The position numbers were made by a program, and so were the translations under genes. DNA of 38,353 nucleotides from Candidatus Aminicenantota bacterium. Lineage in GTDB: Bacteria > Acidobacteriota > Aminicenantia > S016-38. Positions 17,457 through 24,433 of this stretch are shown one piece after another. The notes beneath the pieces were generated by a model. That model saw nothing but the letters and a program-made list of their open reading frames with translations. It did not search any database and had not been told where the DNA came from. Each line of letters starts with the position of its first letter. The stretch's first letter is position 1. The stretch lies in the NCBI GenBank assembly GCA_026991555.1, contig JALXBI010000105.1, forward strand, positions 1 to 38,353, in the 5' to 3' direction.

Positions 17457-17468
17457 TTTTTGTTAAAA

Positions 17469-18125
17469 ATGAAGTTAGCCAACCTTGTGTTTTCAACCCA
17501 TGCAAAAATCGATGTGCTTAGAACCATTTATTTTGCCGGGGATGGTATATCCGGGAGAAAAATAAGCCTCCTCGGGGAGATAAACCCCAGGTCGTGCCAG
17601 CTGGCCCTTCAGGAATTAGAGGCTCTGAACATAATTTATAAAAATGGAAACAGGAGGAAGCATAGCTTTTTCCTTAACAGGGAACATCCCCTTTACAGGG
17701 AACTGCTGAAACCTATTTTTGAGGGGGAAAGGAGGCTTTACCGGGAGATGGCGGGTAAAATAAAGGAAGGACTATCACCTCAGCAAAACGATTCCTTGGT
17801 CTCCATATGGAGTTTTTCGAGCAAGGAGAAAAACGGGGGGGGAGTTGGGATTATCCTGCTTTTCGGTATGGACATTCCCCCCAGGGAGCTCGCCTCAGTG
17901 GAGAGAAAAGCTGGCGAGGAAATAAAGGGACTTATGAACACCCCGGTGAAGGTCAAGGCCTTTACCCTTAAGGATATAAAGGAGGATGCAGGATTTAGAG
18001 ATTTCATTAGGGGAGCGGTAATCCGGGTCCTTTTCGGGGAAAGGCCCGAGGATATAGCCAGGGACCTGGGGATAACCAGAGGCCCTCTTCATTATTTCCT
18101 TTCCAAAAGCCTTTATGTTTCCTGA
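17469..18125 (+). CDS. winged-helix protein with degenerate nucleotidyltransferase-like domain
   Basis: About 218 residues. Residues 5-70 (STHAKIDVLRTIYF, SLLGEINPRSCQLALQELEALNIIYK) form a winged-helix domain of the ArsR/MarR kind, ending in RKHSFFLNREHPLYRELL. Residues about 105-175 recall the minimal nucleotidyltransferase fold often fused to such domains, but the expected GS-x-DxD catalytic motif is not visible (FSSKEKNGGGVGIILLFG stands there), so it is probably not catalytic. A third segment ends in FGERPEDIARDLGITRGPLHYFL, another HTH-like pattern. The ATG at 17469 is chosen; a TTG at 17460 is possible. There is no Shine-Dalgarno site, and the gene lies 12 bases after tRNA-Ser. Targets are unknown. 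Confidence 0.7.
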   Translation: MKLANLVFSTHAKIDVLRTIYFAGDGISGRKISLLGEINPRSCQLALQELEALNIIYKNGNRRKHSFFLNREHPLYRELLKPIFEGERRLYREMAGKIKEGLSPQQNDSLVSIWSFSSKEKNGGGVGIILLFGMDIPPRELASVERKAGEEIKGLMNTPVKVKAFTLKDIKEDAGFRDFIRGAVIRVLFGERPEDIARDLGITRGPLHYFLSKSLYVS

Positions 18126-18146: not shown

Positions 18147-19385
18147 ATGAGGAAGCTCCTTTTCCTTTTGCTTTTCCTTCCCCTTTTCGCTGTCGAGACC
18201 ATCAAATTGCCCAACGGGCTTAAGGTGGTCCTCGTTAATCGAAAAATTCCGGCGATTTTTCTTACCGTCTTTTACAGAGCAGGGGCCTTTTTTGACCCGG
18301 AAGGTAAGAGCGGTCTTTCATACCTTACGGGCATGATGAGCTTTGCCGGGTCACAAAAGACCACTCCGTGGGAGCAGATTTTTTTTCTGGAGAGGGTAGG
18401 TGGCAGGATTAATGTGAATATAACCAGGGATTTTGTTATATTTGAAAGCTATTTTCCCAAGGAGGAATTTCCTTTAGGATTGTGGTATGAGCACGAGAGG
18501 ATGAAGCCCCTCAGTCTTTCCCGGAGTTTTTTTAATGCAGAAAAACGCAGACTTATAAGGGAAGCTGCCCTTTATGAGCAGGATGAGGATTACAAAATTA
18601 AGAGCATCATTTACTCCCTGCTTTATTCAAATTCTCCTTATGCCCACAGGCCCCTTAACATCAGTGATAGTATAACCATTCAGGATGTGGAAAATTTCCA
18701 CTCCATGTATTTTCAGCCCCCCACAGCGCTGATGGTGGTTATAGGGGACCTGGGGGCCAGGGAGAAAAGCCTCATTACCAAAATGTTCTCTGCCCCGGCT
18801 TCCCGGCAGGTTCTTTTTCCGGAAAAGGTGGAATTCCAGTCCAGGAGCCTGAACAGAAAGCTCCTGGTAAAGGGTCTTAAAACAAAGGTCTACGCCAGGT
18901 GTTATAGAGTTTCTTCTCCTTCCTGTTTAAAGCGATGCTCTCTGGACCTGGCAGGGCTTTATCTTAGGAGGAAGATTGAGGGGCAGGTGTTGAAGGGGAA
19001 ATTAAAGGGGAATTGGGAAGTCCTCTCAAGGCATCTGGTTTATTCTTCTTCCCTCTGTGTTGTGGTGAAGGGGGGGGATCCGGTTGCATGGAGGAAGGTG
19101 GTGAACCAGGCGATAACCTCCATGAAGGTTTCGCCCATTAAAAGGACGGAATTTTCTGCCCTGAAACTTTCCTATATAAGAGAAATAAGGGAGGATGAAC
19201 TGAACCCGGAAATCTGGGGTGAGAGATTGGGGGAATATTCACTGGTTTTCCGTTGCTCTCAGGAGGAAATTCTGGGTGGAATTTCCCTTTTAACTCCCAC
19301 TGCCTTCTGGAACATGATAAGGAAAAGCATTTATCCTTTTAACAGGATGGATGTGGTTCTTATGCCATGGGAAAAAAAGCCGTAA
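18147..19385 (+). CDS. M16-like (insulinase fold) protein lacking the zinc motif, subunit 1
   Basis: A 412-residue protein with a signal peptide (first 15 residues) and an M16 fold: TIKLPNGLKVVLVNRK, FYRAGAFFDPEGKSGLSYLTGMM, FESYFPKEEF, MYFQPPTALMVVIGDL. Where active M16 peptidases have HxxEH after GL(A/S), this protein has Y59-L-T-G-M63, so the zinc site is lost; a glutamate-rich helix about 70 residues later remains. It is expected to be a non-catalytic periplasmic protein. It is coupled to the next gene by a 19-base overlap; both look inactive. It may act as a peptide-binding or structural subunit. The mRNA appears leaderless. Confidence 0.8.
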   Translation: MRKLLFLLLFLPLFAVETIKLPNGLKVVLVNRKIPAIFLTVFYRAGAFFDPEGKSGLSYLTGMMSFAGSQKTTPWEQIFFLERVGGRINVNITRDFVIFESYFPKEEFPLGLWYEHERMKPLSLSRSFFNAEKRRLIREAALYEQDEDYKIKSIIYSLLYSNSPYAHRPLNISDSITIQDVENFHSMYFQPPTALMVVIGDLGAREKSLITKMFSAPASRQVLFPEKVEFQSRSLNRKLLVKGLKTKVYARCYRVSSPSCLKRCSLDLAGLYLRRKIEGQVLKGKLKGNWEVLSRHLVYSSSLCVVVKGGDPVAWRKVVNQAITSMKVSPIKRTEFSALKLSYIREIREDELNPEIWGERLGEYSLVFRCSQEEILGGISLLTPTAFWNMIRKSIYPFNRMDVVLMPWEKKP

Positions 19386-20569
19386 TTTTGATCCTGTTTA
19401 TATTGCCTCTATTTTCCGAGGTTAAATACTATCCAGGGAAAAGCCCTCTCATCTCCATTTCCCTCATCTCTCCCTGTGGGAGAGCCGATGACGAGAAATC
19501 GGGAGTCCTTGAGGAGTTCTTTGTTTATCACAAAATGAAATGGGAGGATGAGGTCTTTTCCGTAGGAGGGAGGAGTGAATACCGGGTGGGGCCCGATTAC
19601 TCATATTTCCGGGTTTTTACCCTGAAAAATTACTGGCAAACAGCCATAAAAACAATAGTCTCTATGGTAAGGGACAGGGGTTTTGAATCCGAAAGTTTAC
19701 TGAAGGCAAGGACCTATCTTTCTTTAAGAAATACATCCCCTCTTCCCCGGGATTTCGGAATTTTCCTTTTTTATCCTCTCTCCCGCTATGCGAAGCCCTA
19801 TCCCGGGCCCTCGGATTTTAACAGGATTTCCACCGTGGACCTTGTTTCCATCAGAAGGAAGTGTTTTTCCCCTTCCAGAGTCAGAATTGTAGTTGAGGGT
19901 AGTTATTTAGGGTATCTTGTAAAGGAGCGCCTTACATTTCCTGTCTCTATTGAGAAGCTACCACCTCTGGAGGAGCCTCCGGACAGGACCCCCCTGAAGG
20001 TGGGCTTGCTTCCCTCCCATAAGGTTTTTGTGATCTGGTATTTTAAGGTTATAGACCCTAAGGACCTGTGTCCACTCAGGTATTTGCTCTCCTCCTTGGC
20101 CATGGAGCCAGGTGGGTTGCTCCGTTCGGTTCTCCGCCCCTTTGGGAAGGTGGACTGGGGAATAAACTACGGAAGAAAAATTTCGGTAGGATGGATAATG
20201 GTCAGGTCAATTCCGCAAGACGCCATTTTGAAGACCATTTCCGCAGGGACCAGAGCTATAGCAGGTAAACTCAGGGTCGGCCTTGACGGAGTTGAGTATG
20301 AAAGAATAACCCGACAATTTCAGGGAAGAGCAGCCTATGAGAATTCCCTGCCATGGCAGGGCTTCCGACGGGAATGGAAAAGTTTCCTTATGGAAAATGG
20401 AAGATGTTCCCGGCTTCAGGTTAACTCCTCCCTTTCCGATTATCCCACAAGAAGTATTTCGGTACTAGTGGGGGCCAGCGAGAAAATTCTTCCGGTTTTA
20501 GTGGGCCGATTTTCTTCGGTAGGGGTTTTTGACCGGCGGGGAAAGCTCCTCTATCAGGTGTCCAGATAA
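19367..20569 (+). CDS. M16-like (insulinase fold) protein lacking the zinc motif, subunit 2
   Basis: A 400-residue protein with a signal peptide (about 17 residues). The pattern ISISLISPCGRADDEKSGVLEEFF, the long helix region, SRVRIVVEGSYLG and the second half with LSSLAMEPGGLLRSVLRPFG recall the M16 second-subunit fold. No HxxEH is present (SGVLEEFFVYHK at the expected place). In known bacterial M16B pairs one subunit keeps the zinc site and the other carries an Arg/Tyr pair; here neither visible partner has the zinc site. It overlaps the first subunit by 19 bases and the recombinase gene by 1. Family assignment is less sure than for the first gene. Confidence 0.7.
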   Translation: MGKKAVILILFILPLFSEVKYYPGKSPLISISLISPCGRADDEKSGVLEEFFVYHKMKWEDEVFSVGGRSEYRVGPDYSYFRVFTLKNYWQTAIKTIVSMVRDRGFESESLLKARTYLSLRNTSPLPRDFGIFLFYPLSRYAKPYPGPSDFNRISTVDLVSIRRKCFSPSRVRIVVEGSYLGYLVKERLTFPVSIEKLPPLEEPPDRTPLKVGLLPSHKVFVIWYFKVIDPKDLCPLRYLLSSLAMEPGGLLRSVLRPFGKVDWGINYGRKISVGWIMVRSIPQDAILKTISAGTRAIAGKLRVGLDGVEYERITRQFQGRAAYENSLPWQGFRREWKSFLMENGRCSRLQVNSSLSDYPTRSISVLVGASEKILPVLVGRFSSVGVFDRRGKLLYQVSR

Positions 20570-21447
20570 TGCCCCTGGATGCGGCCAAGGATTTCCTTGA
20601 CTTCATCTCCAAGGAAAGGCACCTTTCCCCTAATACTTTAAAGGGCTACAGGCGGGACCTTAAGCAGTTCAGGTTTTTTCTCGCCTCAGTGAAGGGAAAG
20701 AATGTAATGGAAGTCACGGCTCAGGACATTTACGATTTTCTCCTTTGGCTGGAAGGGGAAGGATATTCAAGGGCATCTGTGGAAAGGAAGCTGGCAACCC
20801 TTAAATCCTTCTATAAGTTTTTACTCAGTGCTGAGTATACTGAGAAAAACCCGGCAAAACTGGTAAAATACCCCAGGAAGGGAAAAACACTTCCTGTTGC
20901 CCTTTCCAGAAAGGAAATATCCCAGCTTCTGGAGGTTCCCCAGGGGGATGACTTCTTTTCCCTAAGGGACCGGGCCATACTGGAGCTCCTGTATGCTACG
21001 GGCCTGAGGGTGTCCGAGCTCGTTGCTTTGGACCTGGGGGATATAAACTTGAAGGAAAGGTTTGTAAAAGTAAAGGGAAAAGGTGGAAAGGACCGAATAG
21101 TCCCCTTTGGAAAACCAGCTCAGAGGGCACTGGTTCTTTATCTGAATAAAAGACCGCGCGGCGAATCTTCTGCCCTCTTCCTTAACAAATTCGGAAGGAG
21201 GCTTTCGGCAAGATGGGTTCAGAAAATGCTTGACAGATACATAGCTCAGACCTCCATAAAAAAGAGAATTTCCCCCCACAAGATAAGACACAGCTTCGCC
21301 ACCCATCTCCTGCAAATGGGGGCTGATGTAAGAACCATACAGGAACTTCTGGGACATTCCTCCCTTTCCACCACCCAGAAATATACCCATCTTGACCTTG
21401 AAAATATTAAAAAACAATATGATAAGGCCAAAGGAGGGGAATTGTGA
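20569..21447 (+). CDS. xerD: tyrosine recombinase XerC/XerD
   Basis: A 292-residue recombinase of normal Xer length with an N-terminal SAM-like core-binding domain (SPNTLKGYRRDLKQFRFFL) and a catalytic domain with the full set R147, K174, H237, R240, H263, Y272 (ATGLRVSEL, KGGKDR, HKIRHSFATHLL, LGHSSLSTTQKY). It resolves chromosome dimers at dif together with FtsK. No phage or integron genes surround it, so it is the housekeeping enzyme; XerC versus XerD cannot be decided here. The ATG overlaps the upstream stop (TAATG), so it is cotranslated with envelope proteins, an unusual context. Confidence 0.93.
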   Translation: MPLDAAKDFLDFISKERHLSPNTLKGYRRDLKQFRFFLASVKGKNVMEVTAQDIYDFLLWLEGEGYSRASVERKLATLKSFYKFLLSAEYTEKNPAKLVKYPRKGKTLPVALSRKEISQLLEVPQGDDFFSLRDRAILELLYATGLRVSELVALDLGDINLKERFVKVKGKGGKDRIVPFGKPAQRALVLYLNKRPRGESSALFLNKFGRRLSARWVQKMLDRYIAQTSIKKRISPHKIRHSFATHLLQMGADVRTIQELLGHSSLSTTQKYTHLDLENIKKQYDKAKGGEL

Positions 21448-22796
21448 GAAAGGTTTTAATGCTTACTGTTTTCTTTTTGCTGGTTTATGCGGTAAAACCC
21501 TGTTTTACTATAGTGGTGGGCAGAGAGGCTTCTGCCGATGGTTCAGTGATTTTAGCCCACAACGAGGATGAGCCCGGGGATCCCATTATAAAAATATGGT
21601 GGGTGCCGGCTAAAACCGGGGTGGAAGGTTTTAGTCTGGTTAGCGGAGCCCAGGAGGTCTGGAGGGGAAATCCGGACATGCTCTGGCTTGAGATGAAGCA
21701 GAAATACTATGCGGATTTCTTCATTAATTCCTACGGGGTGGCAGTTATATCCAACAGGTGCAGGTCAGTGGTTGAGAGGAGAATGGGGGAAAAGGGAATA
21801 AGTTATTTCCTCCGCAGGCTGGCTATTGAGAGGGCCAAAACTGCCAGGGAAGCGGTTTTAAGGGCAGGTGAGCTTATTGAAAAATACGGATATCCTGAGG
21901 GGAGAACCCTGACCTTTGCAGATCCTAAGGAGGGCTGGCTTATGCATATACTGGGAGGCAGGCACTGGCTTGCGTGGAGGGTGCCAGATGACGCGGTGGC
22001 CCTTCTTCCTAACAATTTTACCGCCGGGGTTGTGGATTTGAAGAACAGGGAAAACATTCTTCATTCCAGGGGGTTTTTATCCTTTGCAGTAAAGAACGGT
22101 TTCCTCAAGAAGGGTCAAACGCAATTTCATTTTACTGAAACCTTTTCCCCGGATTACTCAAGCTCTTACAATACGGGAAGGTGGCTTAGCGCCTATAAGG
22201 TGCTTACTGGCAGGGAGTTTGCTGGCGCTCCTCCCTTCCCACCTTTTATAAAGCTGGATTATAAATTGCGACCTGAAAAACTCTTTGAGGTTCTAAGGCA
22301 AAGGCCAGCTCCAGGAACGGACCTTCCCTCCCTTTTCGCCATAAGGTCCATTTGCTATTACACCACTAAGCATTCCTTCGTCCTTTCCCTCTGGGGCAAC
22401 CAGCCAGGAGACATACTGTTGTGGCTTTCCCCTGCGAGACCCGAAGCCACACCCTACATTCCCATATTTTTTGAGGCCAGGAAAATTTTCCCCAGCTGGA
22501 AGGGCTCCCACCGGGATATCCTCCCGGAGCATTTTCTTTTGAAAGGGAAGGTCAGGGAGGAGGCTTCCCACATGCTTTACTATCCCTTCAGGACCCATGC
22601 CGATGAGGTTTATCTTTCCGCCAAGAATCCCCTGGTGTTCTGGAAGGAATACGAGAGAAATTACCTAAGGATGGTCTATCAGGTAAGGGAAAGGGCCAAA
22701 GCGCTTATGAAGGAAGGGAAGATAAAGGAGGCCCGGGAAATTCTTATTAACTTCTCGGCAGGGGCCATTGAAAGGGCCAGGGCTCAGTTGAGGTAA
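21444..22796 (+). CDS. family C69 dipeptidase-like Ntn hydrolase, secreted
   Basis: A 450-residue protein with a signal peptide (about residues 1-17) and then C20-FTIVVGREASADGSVILAHNEDEPG, the start of peptidase family C69 (PepD-like Ntn hydrolases), where the cysteine freed by processing is the nucleophile. Further family features are SYGVAVISNRC, LTFADPKEGWLMHILGGRHWLAWRVPDD and NNFT. It should cleave dipeptides in the periplasm or outside the cell. Start is GTG with AAGGAGGGG upstream; it overlaps the recombinase stop by 4 bases. It ends 13 bases inside the convergent MauE/DoxX gene. Confidence 0.9.
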   Translation: MRKVLMLTVFFLLVYAVKPCFTIVVGREASADGSVILAHNEDEPGDPIIKIWWVPAKTGVEGFSLVSGAQEVWRGNPDMLWLEMKQKYYADFFINSYGVAVISNRCRSVVERRMGEKGISYFLRRLAIERAKTAREAVLRAGELIEKYGYPEGRTLTFADPKEGWLMHILGGRHWLAWRVPDDAVALLPNNFTAGVVDLKNRENILHSRGFLSFAVKNGFLKKGQTQFHFTETFSPDYSSSYNTGRWLSAYKVLTGREFAGAPPFPPFIKLDYKLRPEKLFEVLRQRPAPGTDLPSLFAIRSICYYTTKHSFVLSLWGNQPGDILLWLSPARPEATPYIPIFFEARKIFPSWKGSHRDILPEHFLLKGKVREEASHMLYYPFRTHADEVYLSAKNPLVFWKEYERNYLRMVYQVRERAKALMKEGKIKEAREILINFSAGAIERARAQLR

Positions 22797-23403: not shown

Positions 23404-23958
23404 TCAATTATCCCGGGCAGGGACCTCTATGGTATTATCCACATCAAAGGTGCCTATAAGCTTTATTTTCTCGCCTCTGACCACATACAATCTGCAGATT
23501 ACAGGTTCCCAGAAAGGATTTTCCTTCAGTGCTTTAAGCGAGGAACCTGCATATCCCCCGTCTGAGGTCATGATTATTGGTTTTGATATTTCTCCGGGTT
23601 TCAGGCCTTCTCTAAGGGTGAGTATATAGGCAGTTCCAAGCTTCATCTCTGTCCTCTTTCTCAGGAATACCGCATTAAATGCCACATATCTCAGGGTTCT
23701 TTTCCCCTTATTTCTCACCCTGAAGATAATTCTCGGAGCGACGAAGGTCTCCCAGGGTTTTATCATAGCTCTTGCCGGGGGATGCCAGGGAACCCACATG
23801 GTTTTGACCTGTTCTATGCTAATAGAAGAGGCCACCTCACTTACAGAGGGCTCCCACAGGGAAAGCACAATGGCAATGGCAAACCCGAGAACGAGGGCTA
23901 TAGTCAGAAACTTGGTCTCATTTCCCAGGGGATTTTTCAAGTCCCTCCTCCAGGACAT
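23404..23958 (-). CDS. membrane-anchored paralogue of the adjacent lipoprotein
   Basis: A 184-residue protein with a membrane segment at about residues 18-34 (TIALVLGFAIAIVLSLW) and an outer beta-rich domain. It shares a clear pattern with the gene just upstream: W-x-P near the start, P-x-I-x-F-R-x-x-N-x-G, R-(Y/I)-x-x-FNA-x-F, KPGE-x-S, then NP-(F/Y)-W and a V-rich strand ending in LIGTFDVDNTIE versus LVDLGTYPIENV. Tandem duplication is the natural reading. Function is unknown; an Ig-like protein-protein fold is plausible. It overlaps the lipoprotein gene by 41 bases. Confidence 0.75.
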   Translation of the reverse strand: MSWRRDLKNPLGNETKFLTIALVLGFAIAIVLSLWEPSVSEVASSISIEQVKTMWVPWHPPARAMIKPWETFVAPRIIFRVRNKGKRTLRYVAFNAVFLRKRTEMKLGTAYILTLREGLKPGEISKPIIMTSDGGYAGSSLKALKENPFWEPVICRLYVVRGEKIKLIGTFDVDNTIEVPARDN

Positions 23959-24433
23959 TTTCTATGGGGTAGGTCCCTAAGTCCACCAATTTTCCCCCGG
24001 GGATCCCCACAATAATCCTTACCTCGGCCTTCTTCCAGTAGGGATTGTTCTTGAAACTTTCCTTGCTCTTAGCCCTGAACCCGTAGGGGGAACGGAGAAA
24101 GATTTCGGGGCTTTTTTCCCCGGGTTTTATGGGCTTTGCCTGTGGGTAGGCCCTGTAATCGTATCCCAAGGCTTTCTCCTCATCTGCGAACTTGAATTCC
24201 GCATTGAAATAAAGGATCCTTACCGGTTTCGGTCCTGTATTCTTCAGTCTGAACTTGATGGAGGGGACGTAGACCACCTCCCATGGCCTCACATCTGGAC
24301 CGATTTTTTCCACCCACTGGGTCTTTATGTCCACCACCTTTATCCATTCTTTCACCTGTTCCGGAGAAGGCCCCTGAGAGCAGAAGCTCAAGATCAGGGG
24401 AATAAGCAGAATCAAAAATAAACTCTTCTTCAT
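23918..24433 (-). CDS. putative lipoprotein, tandem paralogue
   Basis: A 171-residue protein with a lipoprotein signal peptide (MKKSLFLILLIPLILSFC with lipobox LSFC; C18 would be lipidated). The mature part has the WVEKIGPDVRPWEVVYVPS, IKFRLKNTGPKPVRILYFNAEF and KPIKPGEKSPEIFLRS pattern shared with the following gene. I do not recognise the family. Position in an operon with a MauE/DoxX protein suggests an envelope role. A strong AAAGGAGGTT site precedes the ATG, 16 bases after the HAD gene stop. Confidence 0.78.
   Translation of the reverse strand: MKKSLFLILLIPLILSFCSQGPSPEQVKEWIKVVDIKTQWVEKIGPDVRPWEVVYVPSIKFRLKNTGPKPVRILYFNAEFKFADEEKALGYDYRAYPQAKPIKPGEKSPEIFLRSPYGFRAKSKESFKNNPYWKKAEVRIIVGIPGGKLVDLGTYPIENVLEEGLEKSPGK

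Follow-up and report, generated by a model that had tools for sequence, protein, structure and literature searches.

In M16 enzymes the edge strand acts in substrate binding. An Arg/Tyr (R/Y) pair also acts in M16 substrate binding, and one half remains active in the bacterial M16B pairs described so far in the review literature (PMC12731061). SPH2681/SPH2682 of Sphingomonas sp. A1 (3ami/3amj) is a two-gene heterodimer of this kind, in which SPH2681 is active and carries HALEH. TTHA1264/TTHA1265 of Thermus thermophilus (7v4y) consists of halves of about 400 aa, one of which keeps HFLEH together with the distal Glu. The M16B halves of the mitochondrial processing peptidase are likewise paired; beta is active and alpha, a pseudopeptidase, has a glycine-rich loop. 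In the core I and core II proteins of mitochondrial complex III, which are respiratory complex subunits facing the mitochondrial matrix, no site was detected in either protein from yeast, and bovine core I carries YFVEH and shows low activity after detergent treatment (PMC12731061). The statement of the preliminary description of the present locus that one subunit remains catalytic in known M16B pairs is thus correct for the described bacterial pairs, but not for yeast core I/II. Within the collection of literature searched there was neither a study of M16 proteins in Aminicenantes nor a bacterial M16 pair with both halves dead.

The window, i.e. the whole stretch of DNA analysed here (38,353 nucleotides), is contig C105 of a 1.9-Mb genome of the class Aminicenantia, 99% complete, whose closest relatives with a name are MAGs of Candidatus Aminicenantes. 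Its forward strand encodes two M16B-like proteins: subunit A (412 aa, positions 18147-19385) and subunit B, of the non-catalytic type (400 aa, 19367-20569). The two open reading frames are uninterrupted and share 19 nt. The N-termini of both proteins are signal-like when judged by eye, with a charged start followed by 10-12 hydrophobic residues, in line with the signal peptides reported earlier, and we infer that A and B are exported from the cytoplasm.

A and B are predicted to have the M16 alpha/beta fold of the M16B type. The AlphaFold2 models reached pLDDT values of 90.5 (A) and 89.0 (B). In Foldseek searches against the PDB, A matched 3ami, the Sphingomonas M16B subunit (TM 0.87), and B matched 7v4y_B (TM 0.72), 3hdi_A (0.73) and the inactive subunit 3amj_B (0.66); the Sphingomonas proteins are best or near-best structural matches, and chain B of the Thermus structure is among the best for B. 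Moreover, PF00675 matches A above the cut-off (E 2.2e-7). Although a Pfam search with B alone gave no match, the model and its Foldseek matches place this protein in M16B; among 18 homologues of B, 11-12 gave matches to the two M16 families of Pfam, and profile searches agree with the fold assignment. The M16-like character proposed in the preliminary description was thereby upheld, as was its reading of the zinc site: residues 59-63 of A (YLTGM, codons at 18321-18335, forward strand) align with the HxxEH of active relatives, and B contains no HxxEH. The motif by which an active M16 peptidase is recognised is consequently found in neither half, which distinguishes this pair from SPH2681/SPH2682, TTHA1264/TTHA1265 and the mitochondrial processing peptidase. 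The third zinc-ligand position (63+76) of A is still Glu (E139).

A and B lie side by side in six other genomes of the window's family (f1), none of which has HxxEH, so the zinc-less pair is not a product of chance or of sequencing error. In all seven genomes the base Glu is replaced by Ser, Gly or Ala and the second His by Met or Arg, and B has lost the R/Y pair, a feature of the M16B non-catalytic subunit. The distal Glu, 76 residues after the second His, is present in the window and in four of the seven genomes overall; in the edge strand of A the Asn is found in five and the Asp in all seven. With much of the edge strand and of the R/Y pair gone from this family, the pair in the window is more derived than is usual in the class. 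The NG86 dN/dS ratios (0.12 for A and 0.06 for B in G000 versus G001, and 0.15 and 0.17, respectively, in G002 versus G003) show purifying selection on both genes; the neighbouring genes measured gave 0.06-0.09.

The zinc-less state extends far beyond this family. Among 71 genomes of the class with a completeness of at least 90%, an A match (counted at about 397 bits or more) is present in 56 and scores well above the active paralogues. The motif was read in 71 distinct class A sequences, seven from the window's family and 64 others: HxxEH occurs in none of them, nor do both His residues, so that no close relative with an intact site, which would have pointed to local decay, was encountered. 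The typical class motif is YLxEN. In the 64 sequences from outside the window's family the first His is replaced by Tyr (46) or Phe (9), the base by Glu (41) or Gln (21) and the second His by Asn (54), and the third ligand is Glu (33), Asn (15) or Asp (8). Such substitutions follow a pattern, as random decay would not. The edge strand of these A proteins reads NAxTxxDxT (N in 57, A in 61, T in 55, D in 61 and T in 51 of 64), and in the aligned class B sequences outside the family the Arg of the R/Y pair is present in 56/56 and an aromatic partner in 49/56 (35 Tyr, 14 Phe). Degenerating genes or a sequencing error would explain the missing catalytic residues, but the low dN/dS ratios, the intact frames in seven genomes and the class-wide occurrence contradict this, and we give it almost no credence. 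The presence of zinc-less pairs in nearly the whole class instead suggests an old, non-cutting, protein-binding chamber.

A B-type frame adjoins A at nearly every class locus, the exceptions being loci truncated by the end of a contig. Two subunits of about 400 aa encoded together, adjacent or overlapping, are thus found across the class, as in M16B heterodimers. One genome (G011, family f6) carries an active A-type domain (HLFEH) and a B-type domain in a single frame of 928 codons (L130, 1893-4676, reverse strand), and, on L131, a separate zinc-less QILQN pair beside FtcD. The kept adjacency of A and B and, indirectly, the active pair in one frame support pairing, and dimerisation of A with B, with binding of a ligand, is what we infer. 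Two families fall below the score gap that delimits A matches: the f2 hits read HMLEH; the three f5 hits (L170, L172 and L173) read YLFQY, YLYQY and YLYQN, are zinc-less, have a B-type neighbour and represent a more divergent pair. Outside the class, the motif was read in 18 high-scoring Acidobacteriota homologues and one Pontibacter sequence. All 18 (L112-L129), most of which have a B-type partner, read HLFEH, unlike A/B, and have the third Glu; the Pontibacter pair (L053) reads HLFEH as well.

These data make one early loss of the zinc site in Aminicenantia the simplest account. In a first tree (95 rows, motif removed) the window's family was placed inside the zinc-less clade (SH-aLRT 98), on a long stem. 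A denser tree, to which active paralogues and f5 had been added and from which the motif columns were removed, had all 24 active rows on one side of a branch (98/99) and all zinc-less rows on the other; a warning from the program concerns the long branches of f1 and f5, which meet in this tree. Using f1 A profiles, the best zinc-less class relatives scored about 159-166 bits, HLFEH relatives up to 153 bits, the one-frame active f6 protein 178 bits and the family's own active paralogues about 78 bits. Alternatively, the window's family might have lost the site a second time, independently. This possibility stems from the AU test, which did not reject the joining of f1 to its own active paralogues (p 0.79), from the very long f1 branch and from the meeting of the f1 and f5 branches.

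We consider it fairly probable (roughly 60%) that A and B form a non-proteolytic M16B clamshell that works outside the cytoplasm by binding peptides or partner proteins. The two proteins would be the halves of an exported chamber, retained as a pseudopeptidase after an early loss of its zinc site in Aminicenantia, for which a single event is the simplest assumption. The parts that dock peptides (the edge strand of A and the Arg/aromatic pair of B) are still present in most of the class, while the metal ligands have been exchanged for a conserved Tyr...Glu/Gln-Asn set; the chamber probably still binds extended peptides or a partner protein, which it would hold or hand on but not cut. In the window's family divergence has gone further, and with the R/Y element and the greater part of the pseudo-site gone the pair is more likely to be a binding or scaffolding module; for the window itself, the loss of the R/Y pair in 7/7 genomes weakens the case for peptide binding. 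A more specific version is put forward tentatively: a free-standing clamshell whose site disappeared in a single event in the common ancestor of most Aminicenantia would since have been a dedicated non-proteolytic carrier of peptides or proteins outside the cytoplasm, an independently arisen bacterial counterpart of core I/II. A class-wide pair that has no active site, yet is still under selection and, outside the window's family, has largely retained its peptide-docking residues, would amount to a natural uncoupling of binding from cutting in M16 proteins, and would offer a comparison for the question of why the mitochondrial core proteins lost their site.

Like the core proteins, the class pair has no site, and yet it lies outside that group. 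With both models, Foldseek returned complex III core proteins among its matches, and the zinc-less state of both halves, as in yeast core I/II (PMC12731061), and the absence of the R/Y pair from the window's family would fit subunits with a structural role in a complex of the membrane or envelope, i.e. a scaffold that has no peptide substrate. However, the substrate-binding residues are kept outside this family and no conserved membrane-complex gene lies beside the pair, which makes such a role unlikely. The kinship with complex III suggested in the preliminary description does not apply in a literal sense: PF00033 (cytochrome b) has no match in the genome, which is 99% complete, so membership of a bc1 complex is ruled out, and A and B look exported.

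The clamshell reading also has to be weighed against a retained, altered chemistry. The Tyr, Glu/Gln and Asn of the class motif might, with the distal Glu, form a changed metal-binding or catalytic site. The replacement is patterned (YLxE/QN) and the distal Glu frequent across the class (33 of the 64 sequences outside the window's family); moreover, the YFVEH of weakly active bovine core I (PMC12731061), similar to YLxEN, is a precedent that makes some weak activity at an atypical metal site conceivable. Against this, roughly half of the class has another residue in place of the distal Glu, and the base and second His positions are Ser/Gly/Ala and Met/Arg in all seven genomes of the family, including the window. 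We therefore consider a changed site very unlikely.

Active M16 paralogues, which the preliminary description proposed to look for elsewhere in the genome, do exist: HxxEH subunits with partners are encoded on C34, C65 and C36 (three pairs). Pseudoenzymes often regulate their active relatives (PMC11266112), and A or B could swap into one of these pairs and tune or block it as a regulator or alternative partner. Nevertheless, A and B adjoin each other and no active M16 gene (one genome of the family, G006, carries an active pair at a distance of about 10 kb), and it is from the active paralogues of its own genome that A is furthest removed (about 78 bits, versus about 160 for zinc-less class relatives), which renders this role improbable.

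The surroundings of the pair in the window's family are unlike those elsewhere in the class, where A and B are typically followed by FtcD and where genes for a zinc ABC transporter and an M20 peptidase are found close by. FtcD is no more than 5 kb away from A in 45 of the 50 A-bearing near-complete genomes from outside the family (45/56 overall) and in none within it. FtcD was rejected as a functional partner, since it is missing near the pair in the window's family and occurs in f2 and f5 as well; the pattern looks like an old gene neighbourhood. The class-wide gene block around the pair, seen in L061-L073, comprises FtcD, a zinc ABC transporter (ZnuA, ABC-3), an M20 peptidase and others. It may be coincidental that an M16 pair without a zinc site has genes for zinc uptake as neighbours. 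An M20 gene is also found near the pair in two genomes of the window's family (L057 and L059).

Within the family, the pair is preceded by HisS and by a 221-aa protein (17460-18125, forward strand) without a Pfam or NCBIfam match. The latter lies directly upstream of A in 7/7 genomes and appears to be associated with the pair by position. A XerC/XerD-type tyrosine recombinase gene (20569-21447, forward strand), the start of which overlaps the stop of B, is a neighbour in 6/7 genomes and is probably merely co-transcribed with the pair. It is followed by a gene for a C69 family peptidase (21444-22796, forward strand), proposed earlier as the source of hydrolysis. This proposal was abandoned: the gene adjoins the pair in four genomes of one genus and is absent from the locus in the other three genomes of the family, and for this reason it is not part of a conserved unit. 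Further along the window, on the reverse strand, there are two adjacent genes for paralogous small secreted-looking proteins (23404-23958 and 23918-24433); those of this type that were tested had no Pfam match, and they are paired in G001 too.
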